Below, one piece after another: positions 44,849-59,743 of a DNA stretch of 64,000 nucleotides. Made by a program: the position numbers and the translations under genes. Origin of the DNA: Arenicola marina (Eukaryota > Annelida > Polychaeta > Arenicolidae); contig OZ025260.1 in assembly GCA_964019135.1 (NCBI GenBank), forward strand, positions 18,408,254 through 18,472,253. The letters run 5' to 3'. Below the pieces are notes generated by a model. The model made no database searches. It saw only the letters and a list, made by a program, of their open reading frames with translations, and was not told the origin of the DNA. Numbering within the stretch: the first letter of the stretch is position 1; every line of letters starts with the position of its first letter.

Positions 44849-44957
44849 ATGGCATTAGTTCCGGGTCTGCTGCGAGGGGCGCTGGTCTCCACACTGATGC
44901 TGATGTCGACCACCATTACCGCAGCACCACTCACTCTGGATCTGGCGTCACTTGGAG
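44849..44957 (+). CDS. Exon 1: signal peptide
   Basis: ATG opens 36 codons plus one base (phase 1), then GTAACG. The N-terminus (MALVPGLLRGALVSTLMLMS) is a standard signal peptide with a likely cut near TITAA, about residue 25. An in-frame TGA lies 14 codons upstream, in the last satellite monomer, and no other ATG lies between. Confidence 0.85.
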
Positions 44958-47900
44958 GTAACGCGATCGAAGCATGCATATCTGAAACATGCTAAACATG
45001 GGGTAGGAGGTTAACCCGAATAGGCAGTAGTTCGGCCGTGTTTGCTGATAAAGACTGGAAGTTTTAATTTTTTTAATTTTTAAAAATTTTTATATTTTGC
45101 TATATTGATACATACATATAAGTCTTACAATACAACAACTGATAATAAATCTAGAGACTGGAAGTTGTTCTACAGACGAAATAGTTGTTCTACAGACGTA
45201 ATAGCGGTTTGGCGACAAGGCTGAATAGGGCCGATCCAGGATATTGCGATACAGGTGGTCCACTTCGGACGGGATGAGATCTCTAAAGATCTGACGGGGA
45301 ACCGGGCTATCATCCCCTCCGGGGGCTGGGAGGGGCGGGGGCGGGGAGGGGGACCGGGCTGTCATCCCCTCCGGGAGGGGTGGGGGGGGGCGGGTGGGGG
45401 GGGGGAGGGGGACCAGGGTGCCCCCCAACGCCCTCCGCCCTCCACCCAACCGCCCCAGCCCCCGGGACCGGGCAGTCGCCCCACCACCTTCCGCCCCAAC
45501 CGCCCCCGCCCCCGGTGCGTCGCCCCACCGTCCTTAACTAAATCTATGCATTCTGATTTCAGTAAATTGTACTACTGTGGAGGCAATCATCGTTTACACG
45601 AGCTGCATTGATCAGAAGTACAATCCGAGTAATTTCCTAAAAGGCTGCGAACCTCAGTGCCAGTAAGTTTAACTGTTACACACCTAGCCATACCTCAGTG
45701 CCAGTAAGCTAACTGGTACACACCCAGCCATACCTCAGTGCCAGGAAGCTAACTGTTACACACCCAGCCCCACCTCAGTGCCAGTAAGCTAACTGTTACA
45801 CACCCAGCCATACCTCAGTGCCAGTAAGCTAACTGTTACACATCTAGACATACCTCAGTGCCAGTAAGCTAACTGTTACACATCTAGAATACCTCAGTGC
45901 CGGTAAGCTAACCGTTTCACACCCAGACATACGTCAGTGCCAGTAAGCTAACTGTTACACACCCAGCCATACCTTAGTGCCAGTAAGCTAACTGTTACAC
46001 ATCTAGACATACCTCAGTGCCAGTAAGCTTACCGTTGCACACCCAGACATACCTCAGTGCCAGTAAGCTAACCGTTGCACACCCAGCCATACCTCAGTAC
46101 CAGTAAGCTGTTGCACACCCAGACATACCTCAGTGCCAGTAAGCTAACTGTTACACACCCAGCCACACCTCAGTGCCAGTAAGCTAACTGTTACACACCC
46201 AGCCGCAAATCAGTGCCAGTAAGCTAACTGTTACACATCTAGACACACCTCAGTATCATTAAGCTGTTACACACCCAACTATACCTCAGTGCCAGTAAGC
46301 TAACTGTTACACATCCAGCCATACCTCAGTGCCAGCAAGCTAGTTCAGTTTGTTTAGGACACCACGGCAAACTCGCTGCTCTTTTTTCTGTAGATTATCA
46401 TACTAAAGTATAAACTTTAGTTACCGGGTAAATGCGATGAGTGGCGAGCGTAGCGCTCACTCTAACGCTGCACCCTCACCCAGCCTGGAATGTAGTGAAC
46501 CTAGCCACATGCATTCATTCTCATTGGTTGGACGGTCAAAGCTGCTTGTCGAGCTTGTCCCGCCAAATATAAACCAAGCGACATATATATGACAATTTGC
46601 GGAAAACTCATTCTATACTGTTCTATATTGTTTCATTCTATAAATTCAGAAACCTAATAAACATCGCCGTTTCGGCTGTAATGTGGCAAGCGTGTCTATC
46701 CCGAGACACCGCGGAACGCAAAAAGTAATGACGTTTGCCACTAAGTTGAAAACCTGTGGTTAATTGATATCACGGGCAAGGCTAAGAGACTCCATTTGGC
46801 AGTCCGGCATGCATGGAATATAGACAAGGGTGGGGACGGTAGCGGAGACTTACAACACGTCACCGCAAATCTCATGACACAGACATGTAACAATACGTTA
46901 TGATACAATACAGTCTAAGACCACGTCACAGCAAATGTCATGGCACAGACATGTAACAATACGTTATGATACAATACATTGTAAGTCCACGTCAAAGCAA
47001 ATCACATATCACAAACATATGGTTGACATAGAACTTTGTATATGCGTTCATAAAACTATCTATACCATATAATCGCTGATAAGATAGACGCATATGTATA
47101 AATTACTTTTTGTTGCATTACTCTTGGTAGGCATGTTGACGACCTTGTGGATTGTATCAATGGTGTGACATCCCTGACCACCGCCTGTCTGCGCTCCTTT
47201 AATCGCATCGTAAACCACACCCCACAGTCCTGGGAGGCAATCCTTGTAGACGGTATGTATATGCAGCATAGCGTGGTGTCAGAATTGTTATTTTCAATAA
47301 CTTTTAGGGATCAAAAAGTATGAAATCGCATGCATAAATTGCCAATTTTCCCATTTAAAAATGCCAAGCCTTCACACGCAAAATAATTCCATTTGGGCAT
47401 TTGTTATGCCTTTGTATTTTATGCGGTTCTGCCACCCTTGGCCTTTGCATGGTTTCAAAACATTATTTCGGGTTTATTCCTTTGGTCCTATATAGAGGTA
47501 ATGAATTTTGCACACTTGAGAATTATAATAAATAGCAAAATATATCTCAAATATGAATTAAATATTTCGTGCATGTTCTCAGCCAAACTGTATTTCATAT
47601 TTGCAGCCGGTGCTGCCCAAAATTGCAGCTTCACGTTTGTCAACCTAATAGACATTTGTCCGGATGTCCCGGCTCTGACACGCGCTGGTGAGTGGTCAAT
47701 GTGGGAGTGGTCATTGTGTGAGTGGTCAATGTGGGAGTGGTCATTGCGTGAGTGGTCATTGTGAGTGAATATTGCGTGAGTGGTCATTGTGAGTGAATAT
47801 TGTGTGAGTGGTCATTGTGTAAGTGGACATTGTGTGAGTGAACATTGTGTGAGTGGTTATTGTGTGAGTGGTCATTGTGTAAGTGGACATTGTGTGCGTG

Positions 47901-50900
47901 AACATTGTGTGAGTGGTTATTGTGTGAGTGGACATTGTGTGGGTGGTCATTGTGAGTAGTCATTGTGCGAGTGATCATTATGTGAGTGGTCATTGTGTGA
48001 GTGGTCATTGTGTGAGTGGTAATTGCGTGAGTGGTCATTGTGTGAGTGGTCATTGTGTGAGTGGTCATTGCGTGAGTGGTCATTGCGTGAGTGGTCATTG
48101 CGTGAGTGGTCATTGTGTGAGTGGTCATTGTGTGAGTTGTCATTGTGTGAGTGGTCATTGTGTGAGTGGTCATTATGTGAGTGTTCATTGTGTAAGTGGT
48201 CATTGTGTGAGTGGTCATTGTGTGAGTGGTCATGGTGTAAGTGGTCGTTATTGGAGTTTACATTGAATGAGTTTCTTGGACAGGATAAGCTGTTTGTAGA
48301 ACAGCAAAGCTATAAGACTGGATAATATGTTTGTAGAAAAGCTAGGATATAGGACTGGATAAGATGTTTGTACAACAGCTAGACTATAGGACGGTGTATA
48401 ATACTGACATCATGACATGTGTGTGTTGGGGGTGGGGGGGGGGGTGGGCTATCGTGTGGGCTTGATTCGGAAGAACCGAGTTGTTGAGGATGACCCAACT
48501 GCCTTCATTGGACGAATAGCAACGAGGCTTCGACAAAATACGAACAACTACTGTCATCTTTTGTGGAGGTCTGAGGTTGCCTAGACGTAGGTCAAGAGAC
48601 GGTTAGAGGAATTATTATTGTTTCACGGCAGGATGGTCGGATTGGAAGTCTGGCGAATGCAACGCCACCTGTGGAGATGGATATGCGACCCATACGCGCA
48701 GCTGCATCGATGTGCTGAGGGACCCACCGAATGTGACGACGGGCTGTGTCGGGCTGAGCACCAACACCACCACGTGCACGTCATCATCGTGCGGTAAGGA
48801 CATGGCCTCTAGTAGCCCCCAAACACGGGATCTCAGGAGATCTCACCTGATCTCAGGTGATCTCACCTGATCTCAGGTGATCTCACCTGATCTCAGGAGA
48901 TCTCACCTGATCTCAGGAGATCTCACGTGATCTCAGGAGATCTCACCTGATCTCAGGAGATCTCACGTGATCTCAGGAGATCTCACGTGATCTCAGGAGA
49001 TCTCACGTGATCTCAGGAGATCTCACGTGATCTCAGGAGATCTCTCCTGATCTCAGGCGATCTCACGCGATCTCAGGAGATTTCACCTGATCTCAGGAGA
49101 TCTCACGTGATCTCAGGAGATCTCACCTGATCTCAGGAGATCTCACCTGATCTCAGGAGATCTCACGTGATCTCAGGAGATCTCACCTGATCTCAGGAGA
49201 TCTCACGTGATCTCAGGTGATCTCACCTGATCTCAGGAGATCTCACGTGATCTCAGGAAATCTCACCTGATCTCAGGAGATCTCAAGTGATCTCAGGAGA
49301 TCTCACCTGATCTCAGGAGATCTCACGTGATCTCAGGAGATCTCACGTGATCTCAGGAGATCTCACCTCATCTCAGGAGATCTCACGTGATCTCAGGAGA
49401 TCTTACGTAATCTCTCGACTTTGCTCAAGATATGACGTACGATATAGTTACTCCGCCCAGTAATCCATACTTCGTAATCTCTTTGTAAGGCGACGCAGCC
49501 CCGGATTCAATAAATGTCCATTAACTAAAACTTCCTAATTGAAAAAACTCATTTGTTGCGTTATGATCTTCTCTATATGGCTGGCAAATAATCTGTTATA
49601 ATTGTTCTTTCCACTTAAGGTTATGAATGTTTGTGTAGCGTTAAGTGTGTCACAAAATACGAACAACTACTGTCATCTTTTGTGGAGGTCTGAGGTTTCC
49701 TAGACGTAGGTCAAGAGACGGTTAGAGGAATTATTATTGTTTCACGGCAGGATGGTCGGATTGGGAGTCTGGCGAATGCAACGCCACCTGTGGAGATGGA
49801 TATGCGACCCATACGCGCAGCTGCATCGATGTGCTGAGCGACCCACCGAATGTGACGACGGGCTGTGTCGGGCTGAGCACCAACACCACCACGTGCACGT
49901 CATCACCGTGCGGTAAGGACATGGCCTCTAGTAGCCCCCAAACACGGGATCTCAGGAGATCTCACCTGATCTCAGGAGATCTCACGTGATCTCAGGTGAT
50001 CTCACCTGATCTCAGGAGATCTCACCTGATCTCAGGAGATCTCACGTGATCTCAGGAGATCTCACGTGATCTCAGGAGATCTCACCTGATCTCAGGAGAT
50101 CTCACCTGATCTCAGGAGATCTCACGTGATCTCAGGAGATCTCACCTGATCTCAGGAGATCTCACGTGATCTCAGGTGATCTCACCTGATCTCAGGAGAT
50201 CTCACGTGATCTCAGGAAATCTCACCTGATCTCAGGAGATCTCAAGTGATCTCAGGAGATCTCACCTGATCTCAGGAGATCTCACGTGATCTCAGGAGAT
50301 CTCACGTGATCTCAGGAGATCTCACCTGATCTCAGGAGATCTCACGTGATCTCAGGAGATCTTACGTAATCTCTCGACTTTGCTCAAGATATGACGTACA
50401 ATATAGTTACTCCGCCCAGTAATCCATACTTCGTAATCTCTTTGTAAGGCGACGCAGCCCCGGATTCAATAAATGTCCATTAACTAAAACTTCCTAATTG
50501 AAAAAACTCATTTGTTGCGTTATGATCTTCTCTATATGGCTGGCAAATAATCTGTTATAATTGTTCTTTCCACTTAAGGTTATGAATGTTTGTGTAGCGT
50601 TAAGTGTGTCACAAGACGGTATCTATGGTCTTGTCGTAAGGTACGCACCCAAAAATGTCTTTTCGCAATAGTCTGTCAAGCTCGTGGCTTTTCGCACCAG
50701 AATTGTTTCTTTTCGGTGTCGAATGTTGTCTAAAACGTGGCGCCATCTGGTGAAGGAATCACCCATGCGAAGCAAGTTTACATGTCTGCCCTCTACGCAT
50801 AGGTGGCGAGTGTTATCTAAATGCTCGTTGTTCGTTGCAGGTGGCGCATCTAGAACCGATGGTCACGTGGCCGGGATGTTCGTAGTCATGGCAACCATCA

Positions 50901-50929
50901 TCAGCCAAGTTTTTCTGACACGTGGTTAG
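44849..50929 (+). CDS. Secreted, probably membrane-anchored protein with two TSP1 modules (seven exons)
   Basis: I join seven exons, all with AG/GT borders and matching phases: 44,849-44,957; 45,563-45,662; 47,131-47,252; 47,607-47,687; 48,632-48,793; 49,751-49,912; 50,841-50,929. They sum to 825 nt, 274 residues plus TAG. Residues 1 to about 25 are a signal peptide. Residues 37-137 hold eight cysteines (39, 51, 65, 69, 78, 89, 117, 128) in a mostly helical-looking domain I do not recognise. Residues 139-191 and 193-245 are TSP1 modules, each with WSDW and six cysteines. The last 28 residues include the hydrophobic FVVMATIISQVF after a small-residue stretch, as in a GPI signal or a short membrane anchor. 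At least six N-glycosylation sequons are present. TSP1 modules commonly bind proteins or glycans outside the cell; the actual partner is unknown. A TGA in frame at 44,807 fixes the start. The model is inferred from sequence, without transcript support. Confidence 0.85.
44958..45302 (+). other. Intron 1, first part: no feature seen
   Basis: Ordinary AT-leaning sequence with a T/A-rich patch at 45,063-45,105 and a short direct repeat TTGTTCTACAGACG at 45,162 and 45,184. I see no coding signal. Confidence 0.6.
45303..45535 (+). repeat. G-run tract followed by C-rich tract in intron 1
   Basis: Positions 45,310-45,420 hold many runs of three or more G (blocks such as GGGGCGGGGGCGGGG), enough for several G-quadruplexes on the + strand. 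Positions 45,421-45,535 are the reverse in bias, with runs of C. CATCCCCTCCGGG is repeated at 45,312 and 45,363. The two halves could pair as an imperfect hairpin in RNA. Long proline or arginine frames here reflect composition only. Confidence 0.8.
45563..45662 (+). CDS. Exon 2: first half of the eight-cysteine domain
   Basis: The acceptor TCTGATTTCAG is followed by 100 nt, entering in phase 1 and leaving in phase 2. It encodes four cysteines, starting NCTTVEAIIVYTSC and ending GCEPQC. The donor is TGCCA|GTAAGT. The last 12 nt of the exon and the donor form the first unit of the 40-bp array that follows. Confidence 0.83.
45651..46342 (+). repeat. 40-bp minisatellite that copies the exon 2 splice donor
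   Basis: About 18 units of 40 bp (a few of 33-41 bp). The first unit begins in exon 2 at ACCTCAGTGCCA and crosses the donor. Nearly every later unit keeps TGCCAGTAAGC, so the intron begins with a ladder of near-consensus 5' splice sites. The unit continues TAACTGTTACACACCCAGCC. Confidence 0.93.
46343..46855 (+). other. Intron 2, middle part: unique sequence
   Basis: No coding signal. There is a short inverted repeat (AGTATAAACTTTAG near 46,405) and a series ATTGGTTGG, AAATATAAACC and CTAATAAACATC at about 46,532, 46,565 and 46,650, which resembles promoter plus poly(A) landmarks. I cannot define element ends. Confidence 0.5.
46856..47022 (+). repeat. 66-bp tandem repeat, 2.5 copies, in intron 2
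   Basis: Units start at CACGTCA at 46,856, 46,922 and 46,988. Each holds GACATGTAACAATACGTTAT in the first two units; the third is partial and more diverged. Confidence 0.85.
47131..47252 (+). CDS. Exon 3: middle of the eight-cysteine domain
   Basis: The acceptor CTCTTGGTAG is followed by 122 nt, entering in phase 2 and leaving in phase 1 at GACG|GTATGT. It encodes HVDDLVDCINGV through AILVD with cysteines 78 and 89, sequon NHT at residue 98 and one tryptophan. The phase change from 2 to 1 fits exons 2 and 4 exactly. Confidence 0.82.
47253..47606 (+). other. Intron 3: no feature seen
   Basis: AT-rich, 354 bp, GTATGT to ATTTGCAG. This is the only intron of the gene besides intron 1's first part without a tandem array. 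Confidence 0.7.
47607..47687 (+). CDS. Exon 4: end of the eight-cysteine domain
   Basis: The acceptor CATATTTGCAG is followed by 81 nt in phases 1-1, encoding GAAQNCSFTFVNLIDIC and ending TRA. It holds cysteines 117 and 128 and sequon NCS. The donor GCTG|GTGAGT is the first copy of the 15-bp repeat that fills the start of intron 4. Confidence 0.82.
47688..48274 (+). repeat. 15-bp minisatellite that copies the exon 4 splice donor
   Basis: About 38 units of GTGAGTGGTCATTGT and close variants (GTAAG, GCGTGAG). The array starts at the first base of the intron, so each unit carries a GTGAGT donor. Because 15 is divisible by three, the exon frame stays open for about 75 nt (EWSMWEWSLCEWS...) to a TGA at 47,762. 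Confidence 0.93.
48632..48793 (+). CDS. Exon 5: TSP1 module 1
   Basis: The acceptor TTTCACGGCAG and donor TGCG|GTAAGG enclose 162 nt in phases 1-1, so the module can be duplicated without breaking the frame. It encodes WSDWKSGECNATCGDG, then TRSC and four further landmarks of the TSP1 fold; the six cysteines are at residues 147, 151, 162, 176, 186 and 191. Sequons are NAT, NVT and NTT. Confidence 0.9.
48829..49413 (+). repeat. 10/20-bp GATCTCA minisatellite, intron 5
   Basis: About 58 ten-base units, alternating GATCTCAGGA with GATCTCACCT or GATCTCACGT, in exact 10-bp register for 585 bp. The array starts 35 bp after the exon 5 donor. Confidence 0.95.
49751..49912 (+). CDS. Exon 6: TSP1 module 2
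   Basis: Again 162 nt in phases 1-1 with the same splice borders. It differs from exon 5 at three bases only, and all three change the residue: K to E in WSDWKS, R to S before DPPN, and S to P next to the last cysteine. All six cysteines (201, 205, 216, 230, 240, 245) are kept. Confidence 0.9.
49948..50372 (+). repeat. 10/20-bp GATCTCA minisatellite, intron 6
   Basis: The counterpart of the intron 5 array, 425 bp, about 42 ten-base units. The last 230 bp or so match the intron 5 array unit for unit, including the variants GATCTCAGGAAATCTC and CTCAAGTGATC, so the length change lies in the left half. Confidence 0.95.
50841..50929 (+). CDS. Exon 7: C-terminal tail and stop
   Basis: The acceptor TTGTTCGTTGCAG is followed by 89 nt in phase 1 ending in TAG. 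It encodes GASRTDGHVAGM, then FVVMATIISQVF and LTRG. A small-residue stretch followed by a short hydrophobic end suggests a GPI-anchor signal; a single short membrane segment is the alternative. There are no cysteines. Confidence 0.75.
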
Positions 50930-54661: not shown

Positions 54662-55620
54662 GTAAGTGTAAGTTGTGAATTAAATATCGTATGCGCTTGT
54701 GCTGTCGATGACGTTCATTCAGGGACATGATATTTACGGTGAAATGCGAAGTACACGCGACTACGTTAATCGGGTAAAATATTTTTCATCGACATGCATT
54801 CAGTATCAATAAACTTGGATGTTGATCTATCTGCCGTGTTTCAGATGCTACCGACACATCGAGCTCCCTGAAGGAGAGACGACCACACCGATTGTTTCGT
54901 CCTTGGGAGGCTGTTGCCAGACATGCAGAGAGTACGTCACTGATTACCACTGGCACACCCTACGAGAATCACTCCTCATCGTGCAAGGTTCCCACCCGTC
55001 CCATCGCTCGATGTGCCGAAACTGTGCAAACCGACCTGAATGTCTCCGATATCCATGACTGTACCAACCAGAGGGGTGTGCAGGTACCTGTCGTTCACAT
55101 ACTGCCTGCGTTCAGCCATTTAAACCCAACTGGCGTTGCCCCATCGAACGCATTGGAATTGCGACGTCTTTCAAGTGGGAATAACGCGATGGTAACTGGA
55201 CAGTGGCACAACTGGGAGAACGACTTGCAGACGGCCAAACTCAGGCGGAGTCAGAACACCAGTTGGCCTTGTGATAGCTGCTTTAGGAGTAATCGATATT
55301 TAAGTACAGCAGCTGTCGGCATGCTGGAGCAGTGGTACACCCTCAACCGTCATCACCCATACCCCACCAGTTATGTCGTCCGGTACATATCTCAGCACGG
55401 GAATATCTCAGCCAACCAGGTCAAGAAATGGTTGGCCAACAGACGCATGCGAGACCCCACCCGACAGCACTCCAAGAGCGCCAGTGAATGCCCCGAGCCA
55501 CCCGCGACCACTCGCCAGCACCCGTACACCAGATTGTTGTCCACGTCGGACAAGCCACGGACGAGGAAATCGTTACGCAACGACATCGACTTGCCGAAGT
55601 CAACAATTAAAATACCTTAA
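54589..55620 (+). CDS. TALE-class homeodomain transcription factor, copy 1 (two exons)
   Basis: Exons 54,589-54,661 and 54,845-55,620 join in phase 1 across a 183-bp intron (GTAAGT to TGTTTCAG) to 282 residues ending in TAA. TGA lies six codons before the ATG in frame, with no other ATG between. The homeodomain spans about residues 172-232, with the three-residue TALE loop extension (HHPYP, 194-198) and recognition helix WLANRRMR (220-227) that keeps Asn51 and Arg53 of the standard numbering. It should bind DNA in the nucleus. An N-terminal LFRPWE box (41-46) is shared with copy 2. The tail of about 50 residues is basic and serine-rich; no MEIS, PBC or KNOX domain is visible. This fits the divergent TALE genes reported from spiralians (SPILE-like), but orthology is not shown. 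Confidence 0.85.
54845..55620 (+). CDS. Copy 1 exon 2, with the homeobox
   Basis: The acceptor TGCCGTGTTTCAG is followed by 776 nt. It carries the LFRPWE box at 54,892-54,909, the homeobox at about 55,285-55,467 and the stop. The whole exon is open in one frame. Confidence 0.9.
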
Positions 55621-56477: not shown

Positions 56478-57290
56478 TTAGTTCGCACTTCCTTCGTGGA
56501 TACTAATAGTTGTGTAAAGCGATGCAGTCCTATGCAATGGATTTACATCAGATATGCACGGCAAAACAGTATTTATGACTTTATGATGAAAACGGACTTC
56601 TATGTAAAAATCTTTATACTTATTGAAAGCTACAATTTTTTGACAAATAAGGTGTCTTGACTTCAGCAACATTAACATATGTTTCCTCGATTGTTGCTTA
56701 TCGCATAAATTGACAATTAAACTGGTTTGCGAGTTGCTCTTTAGACGTATAATTTGTAGAGATGATGAATTTGAGGTATATTTAGGTACGCAGTTAATAA
56801 CACATAACGATTTCGGGATGGCAATTTTAGAGTTAGAAATATGAGCAGTGGAGATGAATAAGTGAATAAGTAAATTCCAAAGACTGTCGATTTCGTTGGC
56901 CCGAAGTGAATATCCGAGGGTTGAAGCCGACCGCTTGCCAGGACGTTGTCTCTTAGAGGAGTTGTCTGTTGAAGACGGCAGTTTGCTATCCGGGGAAGAG
57001 TTGCTGGTGTGATCCCTGGTGGGATCTCGCATACGCGTGTTAGCCAGCCACTTTTTGACTTGGTTGACTGAGATATTCCCGTGTCGAGATATGTAGCGGA
57101 CTACATAGTCGGAAGGATATGGGTGGTGGCGGTTGAGAGAGTACCACTGCTTCAACATGTCGACAGCTGTTCCACTGAGATAGCGGCTTGCTCTTGTGGG
57201 GCGCTTGGTGAAATTGTGAGATGCCGCTGAAAGTGTAGCGTCCGTTGGTGACAGCCTAACGTCACTCTGGTAGCCGCTGTTACTGGGCAT
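56478..57290 (-). CDS. TALE-class homeodomain protein, copy 2
   Basis: An open frame of 270 residues from ATG at 57,290. The homeodomain (about residues 33-93) has loop HHPYP (55-59) and helix WLANTRMR (81-88) with Asn51 and Arg53 intact; 47 of 58 homeodomain residues equal copy 1. The flank is Ser/Thr-rich. Beyond about residue 135 the frame turns AT-driven (Ile, Asn, Lys, Ser) and may not be the natural end. The FFRPWE box that matches copy 1 lies just upstream (about 57,340-57,320) but in another frame, and a TAA closes the homeodomain frame 8 codons before this ATG. I found no splice pair that joins the two frames. So this is either a gene with a new, shorter N-terminus or a decaying copy. 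It converges on copy 1. Confidence 0.62.
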   Translation of the reverse strand: MPSNSGYQSDVRLSPTDATLSAASHNFTKRPTRASRYLSGTAVDMLKQWYSLNRHHPYPSDYVVRYISRHGNISVNQVKKWLANTRMRDPTRDHTSNSSPDSKLPSSTDNSSKRQRPGKRSASTLGYSLRANEIDSLWNLLIHLFISTAHISNSKIAIPKSLCVINCVPKYTSNSSSLQIIRLKSNSQTSLIVNLCDKQQSRKHMLMLLKSRHLICQKIVAFNKYKDFYIEVRFHHKVINTVLPCISDVNPLHRTASLYTTISIHEGSAN

Positions 57291-57468
57291 AGAACGGTGG
57301 TCGGCATCGAGTTATCCTCCCAGGGACGGAAGAACTTTGTACACATCTTCAGTTTGTGAACAATTAGCCGACGCGATGACCCTTGGTAACAGATCAAAGT
57401 TGGGGATTGAGATTTGCTGCGCACGTACAAGTCAAGTGAACGCAAATCCAAATGAACTTCTATTTTCT

Positions 57469-58873: not shown

Positions 58874-59743
58874 TTATATCTCTGTGCGGTGCAAGGCTGT
58901 GAACCGGACAAAGCTGTGAACCGGACAAGGCTGTGAACCGGGCAAGGATGTGAACCGGGCAAGGCTGTGAACCGGACAAGGCTGTGAACCGGACAAGGCT
59001 GTGAACCGGACAAGCTGTCAACCGGACAAGGCTGTGAACCGGACAAGGCTGTGAACCGGGCAAGGATGTGAACCGGACAAGCTGTGAACCGGACCAAGCT
59101 GTGAACCGGACAAGGCTGCAAACTGGACCATGCTGTGAACCGGACAAAGCTGTGAACCGGACAAGGCTGTAAACTGGACCATGCTGTGAACCGGACAAGG
59201 CTGTGAACCGGACAAGGCTGTGAACCGGACCATGCTGTGAACCGGACAAGGCTGTGAACCGGACAAAGCTGTGAACCGGACAAGGCTGTGAACCGGACAA
59301 GGCTGCGAATCGGACAAGGCTGTGAACCGGACAAGGCTGTGAACTGGACAAGGCTGTGAACCGGACAAGGCTGTGAACCGGACAAGGCTGTGAACCGGAC
59401 AAGGCTGTGAACCGGACAAGGCTGTGAACCGGACAAGGCTGCGAACCGGACAAGGCAGTGAACCGGACAAGGCTGTGAACCGGACAAGGCTGTGAACCGG
59501 ACCAGGCTGTGAACCGGACAAGGCTGTGAACCGGACAAGGCTGTGAACCGCTGTGAACCGGACAAGGCTGTGAACCGCTGTGAACCGGACAAGGCTGTGA
59601 ACCGGACAAGGCTTTGAACCGGACAAGGCGGTGGACCAGACCAGGCTGGGGACCGGACAAGGCTGTGAACCGGACAACCGGACAAGGCTGTGAACCGGAC
59701 AAGGCTGTAAACCGGACAAGGCTGTGAACGCACAGAGATATAA
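58874..59743. mobile_element. 17-bp minisatellite enclosed by 15-bp inverted repeats
   Basis: About 49 units of GCTGTGAACCGGACAAG fill 58,893-59,728. The array is bracketed by TTATATCTCTGTGCG (58,874-58,888) and its perfect reverse complement (59,729-59,743). If the outer TA is a target-site duplication, this is a short non-autonomous DNA element whose interior has become a minisatellite. All three - frames are open through it because the unit has no stop; with a 17-bp period no frame is favoured, and I call no gene. Confidence 0.65.

Follow-up and report, generated by a model that had tools for sequence, protein, structure and literature searches.

A tandem family of TSP1-like genes with a fast-changing cysteine-rich head and splice-donor minisatellites in the annelid Arenicola marina

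Results

Structure of the window gene

We analysed a 64,000-nucleotide stretch of the genome of the polychaete Arenicola marina (contig OZ025260.1; C13:18408254-18472253, hereafter the window) and searched the genome of 867 Mb in 762 contigs for relatives of what it contains. Two lines of evidence mark this genome as an annelid's. The 15,942-bp contig C762 is mitochondrial by its COX1, and its open frames (those other than COX1 named by eye) follow each other on one strand as cox1, cox2, cox3, nad6, cob, atp6, nad5, nad4L, nad4, nad1, nad3, nad2, the conserved annelid order. Two globin exons have their best matches in extracellular giant haemoglobin chains, which are annelid proteins, one row naming Glossoscolex. 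An amphioxus host, to which the repeats described below had pointed, was rejected on these grounds; GFP family searches had no match, but the controls had none either and the result carries no weight by itself. A nemertean host, considered for a short stretch of gene order, was dropped in view of the mitochondrial order. The window holds a gene for a predicted secreted protein that joins an eight-cysteine domain to two modules resembling the thrombospondin type 1 repeat (TSP1). This gene is one of four intact neighbouring copies. Their products appear to be small proteins anchored at the cell surface, in which a TSP1-like stem carries a cysteine-rich head that changes fast. Genes for secreted proteins with TSP1-like modules are a known kind; less usual here are the quick change within a tandem family, a head that matches no named family, and minisatellites made in part from the genes' own splice sites.

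When the predicted exons were spliced in silico, seven exons with GT donors and AG acceptors joined in phases 1, 2, 1, 1, 1, 1 to a coding sequence of 825 nt, or 274 residues and a stop. The seven exons, consensus borders and phases of the original prediction, made from the sequence of the window alone, are thereby borne out exactly; its 275 codons include the stop. All exons lie on the plus strand. Exon 1 (44849-44957, 109 nt) opens with ATG and would encode a signal peptide and the start of the mature protein. The eight-cysteine domain begins in exon 2 (45563-45662, 100 nt; Cys 39, 51, 65 and 69) and continues through exon 3 (47131-47252, 122 nt; Cys 78 and 89) and exon 4 (47607-47687, 81 nt; Cys 117 and 128). 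Exon 5 (48632-48793, 162 nt), of symmetric phase 1-1, carries TSP1 module 1 with WSDW, CNATCGDG and six cysteines, and exon 6 (49751-49912, 162 nt) carries module 2 as its tandem duplicate. Exon 7 (50841-50929, 89 nt) encodes a spacer and a hydrophobic C-terminal tail, a putative glycosylphosphatidylinositol (GPI) signal, which ends in VFLTRG before the stop TAG. The cysteine layout foreseen earlier, an eight-cysteine domain and WSDW plus six cysteines in each TSP1 module, was found throughout.

Between exons 5 and 6, 3 of 162 nt are different, and each of these changes replaces an amino acid. The block of ~1.1 kb to which they belong (TSP1 exon, intron and array) has been doubled in this gene; read by eye, the ends of the block have a few bases (ACAA) in common. 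Also by eye, the protein starts with a hydrophobic stretch followed by an AA-P cleavage-like site. The C-terminal tail reaches its 11-residue hydropathy maximum, 2.41, at residues 256-266. From these features we infer a signal peptide and a GPI anchor. The protein also has nine N-glycosylation motifs.

A tandem family with conserved exon borders

Searching the genome with the spliced protein and its exons revealed three further complete copies upstream on the same contig, A from 18338256, B from 18360963 and C from 18377828; the window gene is copy D. Gene starts are spaced by 22.7 kb (A-B), 16.9 kb (B-C) and 75.3 kb (C to the window gene), 52.8 kb of the last being a single array. Copies A, B and C keep every border, phase and frame, with no stop and no frameshift, and encode 222, 222 and 221 residues, each having one TSP1 exon versus two in the window gene. 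Coding exons differ in length among the copies by 6 nt (exon 1) and 3 nt (exon 2) only, whereas the gaps in introns 1 and 3 come in many sizes that are not multiples of three. In sequence, exons differ between copies by 0 to 25%, and exon 2 by 10 to 25%. Downstream lies a fifth copy, E (18472588), of which exon 1 alone is seen, a gap of 200 N starting 218 bases behind it. The exon 1 donor, GAG/gtaacg (the slash marks the border), is common to A, B, C, D and E.

Disagreement of exon borders among relatives had been named beforehand as grounds for rejecting the gene model; it was looked for in the paralogues and was not found. Since the three paralogues agree in borders and phases, the model was not refuted. 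With four intact copies, and with the selection on frames and cysteines described below, the seven-exon gene is very probably real, as first proposed. Absent from the original prediction were the tandem family, the speed at which it changes, and the two arrays that centre on donor sites of the gene itself.

TSP1-like modules

In both modules of the window protein the six cysteines are spaced 3, 10, 13, 9 and 4 and accompany WSDW, a pattern that we take to follow the canonical TSP1 order. TSP1 layers of alternating Trp and Arg usually have two or three Arg; each module here offers one (THTRSC) for the stack. Both modules also have WxxW and CxxTCxxG motifs, presumably sites of C-mannose and O-fucose, respectively. 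The window protein scores 24.8 bits against Pfam PF00090 (TSP_1; cut-off 21.6) from two stretches, and passes because the scores of two near-identical modules are summed. With the spondin-like model PF19028 it reaches 34.6 of the 41 bits at the cut-off, copies A, B and C giving 16.9 to 22.2, and it also falls below the cut-offs of the ADAMTS-like TSP1 models. Its matches in the PDB are to thrombospondin-1 repeats (E 1.1e-6 and 2.1e-5); thrombospondin-1 and UNC5D repeats make up the rows at E 0.0015 or better, with weaker rows beyond. The modules share with TSP1 repeat proteins (PF00090) the WSDW and CxxTCG motifs, six ordered cysteines and phase 1-1 exons, but are divergent and are joined to a short hydrophobic tail and to an eight-cysteine domain with no known relative.

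The eight-cysteine domain

Profile searches matched the eight-cysteine domain to no named family. In Pfam the best match, found in one of four family members, had E 0.12; NCBIfam returned nothing, and no PDB chain matched to E 10. A second place in the genome was not found below E 0.1; one match, at E 0.37, lies on contig C12. The original prediction could name no family for this domain, thought that it may be new and proposed the profile search; the Pfam, PDB and genome searches do not contradict it, and the domain is apparently uncharacterised. Homology to nematode or GDNF-receptor-type helical cysteine domains, a candidate relationship, was set aside, as no profile supports it.

Conservation of the protein and fast change of its head

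The four copies were aligned over 219 ungapped codons with 108 variable sites, and the columns were permuted in 2000 shuffles. The alignment contains no stop (permutation mean 3.0, P=0.037) and no changed cysteine among 14 columns (mean 4.3, P=0.0065), a joint result seen in 1 of 2000 shuffles, while 67 of the 219 codons change their amino acid. Open frames and unchanged cysteines at this frequency indicate that the protein is kept. For the eight-cysteine domain alone, the cysteine test gave P 0.004 and the stop test P 0.135.

Within this frame the copies change quickly. Variable sites number 49, 35 and 24 at codon positions 1, 2 and 3. The ratio of nonsynonymous to synonymous differences per site (pN/pS), pooled over the six pairs, is 1.55 overall, with 1.94 for the signal peptide, 1.90, 1.12 and 1.98 for exons 2, 3 and 4, 3.24 for TSP1 (few changes) and 0.64 for the tail. 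One-sided Fisher tests on independent pairs compared replacing with silent change in each of the three possible pairings: the excess of replacing change had P 0.063, 0.021 and 0.014 in the whole protein and, in the same order, P 0.169, 0.041 and 0.045 in the eight-cysteine domain. Exon 2 is the most divergent exon in most pairs. It changes faster than the repeat-masked flanking introns 1 and 2 in AC, AD, BC, BD and CD (P 4.1e-6 to 0.0076; AB, P 0.44), these P values being uncorrected and the six pairs not independent; an earlier comparison with introns 1 and 3 found it faster in four of six pairs. Judged by these sequences, diversifying selection on the family is likely, not proven.

Minisatellites and copied splice donors

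Two of the intron arrays are built around the gene's own donors. In intron 2, a 40-bp array (45651-46342, plus strand as are all window arrays of this section; 17.5 copies) opens with a unit that joins 12 bases from the end of exon 2 to the initial 28 bases of the intron, donor included, and CCAGTAAG occurs in the array 14 times. The array is present in all four copies, and among these paralogues it ranges over 92.6, 3.6, 125.6 and 17.5 units in A, B, C and D. In intron 4, a 15-bp array (47688-48246, 37.7 copies) begins at the first intron base with the donor GTGAGTGG and contains GTGAGT 29 times. The arrays of A, C and D all start there, and copy B holds no more than a few degraded units. If exon 4 is extended into the array (47688-47761), the frame stays open for 75 nt only, as GEWSMWEWSLCEWS..., and short isoforms are conceivable, given donors GTGAGT at +30 and +60.

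Three more arrays flank or interrupt the gene. A 20-bp array in intron 5 (48824-49414) starts 30 bases behind the donor, and that in intron 6 (49943-50373) is a copy of it. Upstream, a 36-bp array of ~1,482 copies fills positions 1-44808 of the window and extends beyond its start (C13:18400221-18453061, 52.8 kb), ending 40 bp before the ATG; shorter arrays of the unit precede A, B, C and E. Its unit contains a donor-like ACA/GTGAGA, and the array may therefore have been seeded from an untranslated exon at the 5' end.

Donors were scored with a weight matrix, taking as decoys all intron sites of 4 bits or more. In the window gene, the exon-adjacent donor of intron 4 outscores all 34 decoys, and that of intron 2 is equalled or exceeded by 2 of 20. 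The array matches listed for the 36-bp and 40-bp units (62 and 65) are all inside the cluster; the 36-bp search omitted the window's own 52.8-kb array and is no evidence of absence outside the cluster. Among 34 other TSP1 exons examined, from 8 loci and 26 hand-picked from 149 listed matches, one has a donor-spanning array; several of the 34 share one gene, and several extend beyond their match so that the donor is out of view. The underlying family search scored 150 of 310 candidates, and the cluster's own TSP1 exons are not among the matches listed. The positive case (C19:19996763; 1631-1912 of locus L001), a TSP1 exon of another gene, has 6.3 copies of a 45-bp unit lying over its 3' border and donor, and the phenomenon is therefore not private to the family in the cluster.

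Comparable repeats are the mirage minisatellites of amphioxus Adh3, globin and troponin C genes, with a similar case in PGBD5; splicing of the mirage genes is reported as still normal in the accessible text of these accounts (PMC3087553, PMC3902484). As described there, mirages resemble the intron-2 array in having a unit that spans an exon-intron boundary and an unstable copy number. The present case differs in its annelid host, in an intron-4 array that starts at the donor without exon sequence, and in 36-bp and 20-bp arrays that copy no recognised splice site. Among annelids, earthworm metallothionein genes, whose transcripts have been studied, also have a large repetitive intron region, of 10-19 kb in intron 1; the proteins are unrelated, and copying of splice sites is not described in the accessible part of that report (PMC12783039). 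Among the matches listed for literature on annelid TSP1 or GPI families and exon-boundary minisatellites, none pointed to this gene or to mirages in an annelid.

Discussion

The gene structure, the four intact tandem copies, the TSP1-like modules, the invariant cysteines and the fast eight-cysteine domain can be read from the DNA itself. To explain them together, we consider it reasonably probable that this intron-rich annelid gene is functional, that its small secreted product stays tethered to the cell surface, and that it belongs to a diversifying recognition family with donor-derived arrays. The signal peptide would route the protein into the secretory pathway, where a GPI anchor would replace the C-terminal tail. 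The stem would consist of one or two TSP1 modules, with their C-mannose and O-fucose sites, and a disulphide-bonded eight-cysteine head would meet an evolving ligand; microbes, partner gametes and the cells of other individuals are candidates. The family would grow by duplication of a roughly 20-kb unit rich in minisatellites; the two intron arrays would descend from donor splice sites of the gene itself, copied in tandem, and splicing would still use the exon-adjacent donor. A more far-reaching version, in which the head is a new disulphide-bonded fold, carried on a TSP1 stem with a GPI anchor, and the proteins form a lineage-specific annelid recognition system, under diversifying selection and with cluster turnover through donor-seeded minisatellites, seems to us doubtful; such a system could possibly serve self/non-self, gamete or microbe recognition.

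Several observations weigh against a functional, diversifying recognition family. Surface anchoring and the ligand are themselves what we infer from the protein sequence. Against PF00090, the single-module copies stay below the cut-off of 21.6 bits (C 16.3, B 13.5, A not listed to E 1), which marks their modules as divergent and TSP1-like and leaves the assignment to motif and PDB match; the TSP1 call of the original prediction thus stands for motif anatomy, for the PDB matches and for the PF00090 score of the window protein, but not for the scores of its single-module relatives. Copy B reads CNAICGDG and has lost the O-fucose site. Of the 105 decoys in intron 2 of copy C, 13 score as high as the true donor or higher. 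Exon 2 taken alone gave P 0.333, 0.081 and 0.022 for replacing versus silent changes, below 0.05 in one of three pairings; replaced residues show no excess (67 versus 71.2 expected by permutation), and relaxed constraint, too, would be compatible with a pN that equals or exceeds pS. Finally, over the final 500 bases of intron 2 five of six pairs differ by 25-31% in a simple end-anchored alignment; the masked intron, in local matches only, differs by 4-10%, a method that favours similar stretches.

Gene conversion is the main rival to diversifying selection. The gene would be real, and exon 2 would have diverged by array-aided conversion and unequal exchange, with no selection for diversity. 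We think this improbable, with a chance large enough to be taken seriously. The array next to exon 2 is unstable, at 3.6 to 125.6 copies, the exon 5 block was duplicated, and in pair CD dN and dS of exon 2 are both 0.30 while all masked introns together differ by 5%, a further point against diversification; another is that the source could be unsampled copies. Conversion accounts less well for the ratios of replacing to silent changes in exon 2, namely 10 to 0 (AB), 18 to 3 (AC) and 19.5 to 1.5 (AD), which lie above the share of replacing sites, and the genome search found no donor copy outside the cluster.

Rather unlikely, in our view, is a protein that is soluble in matrix or mucus, or has a transmembrane tail, in place of a GPI anchor. 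The tail does end in TRG, and its hydrophobic part has only ~14 residues. However, small residues, a short spacer and a hydrophobic end with no cytoplasmic domain form the usual layout of a GPI signal; the window protein has this layout, and its tail is the sole part of the protein with pN/pS below 1.

Decay of the family is a little less likely still. On this account the copies would be young pseudogenes, or duplicates under hardly any constraint, whose frames stay open through youth alone, as pN at or above pS, replacement changes near random expectation and a fifth copy seen as exon 1 only would allow, although the N gap begins close behind that exon. Decay fits poorly with exon lengths that differ only in threes, and with the absence of any stop or frameshift and the retention of all splice sites and all 14 cysteine columns over 108 variable sites. 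It is very unlikely that the copies, or the duplication of exons 5 and 6, are unmerged or mis-joined haplotypes of an assembly in which minisatellites are hard to place and an N gap adjoins copy E, since exons differ by up to a quarter between copies, array lengths differ, and exons 5 and 6 are distinct at three sites.

The locus brings to light a cysteine-rich domain that is apparently uncharacterised and whose possible role in recognition can be tested. Splice-donor minisatellites, known from amphioxus genes, occur here in an annelid tandem family in which copy number, exon number and protein head all vary. The cluster is thus a natural setting in which to test whether repeats that copy an exon boundary promote exon duplication and the birth of new genes, and by what means the spliceosome chooses one donor among dozens of near copies.

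Other features of the window

Downstream of the gene, positions 58892-59729 hold a 17-bp array of CAAGGCTGTGAACCGGA (~50 copies) that is open in several minus-strand frames; the one frame searched matched no Pfam family. Intergenic sequence is duplicated along with the genes, mostly at 82-97% in longer matches, with one stretch rich in repeats at 72-78%. Two open frames with TALE-type homeobox domains, at 54826-55620 (plus strand) and 56478-57311 (minus strand), score 37.3 and 38.6 bits with Homeobox_KN (cut-off 24). Both sit in the unit duplicated together with the TSP1 genes, and they may belong to the spiralian TALE expansion, as far as the accessible text of PMC6118893 describes it.

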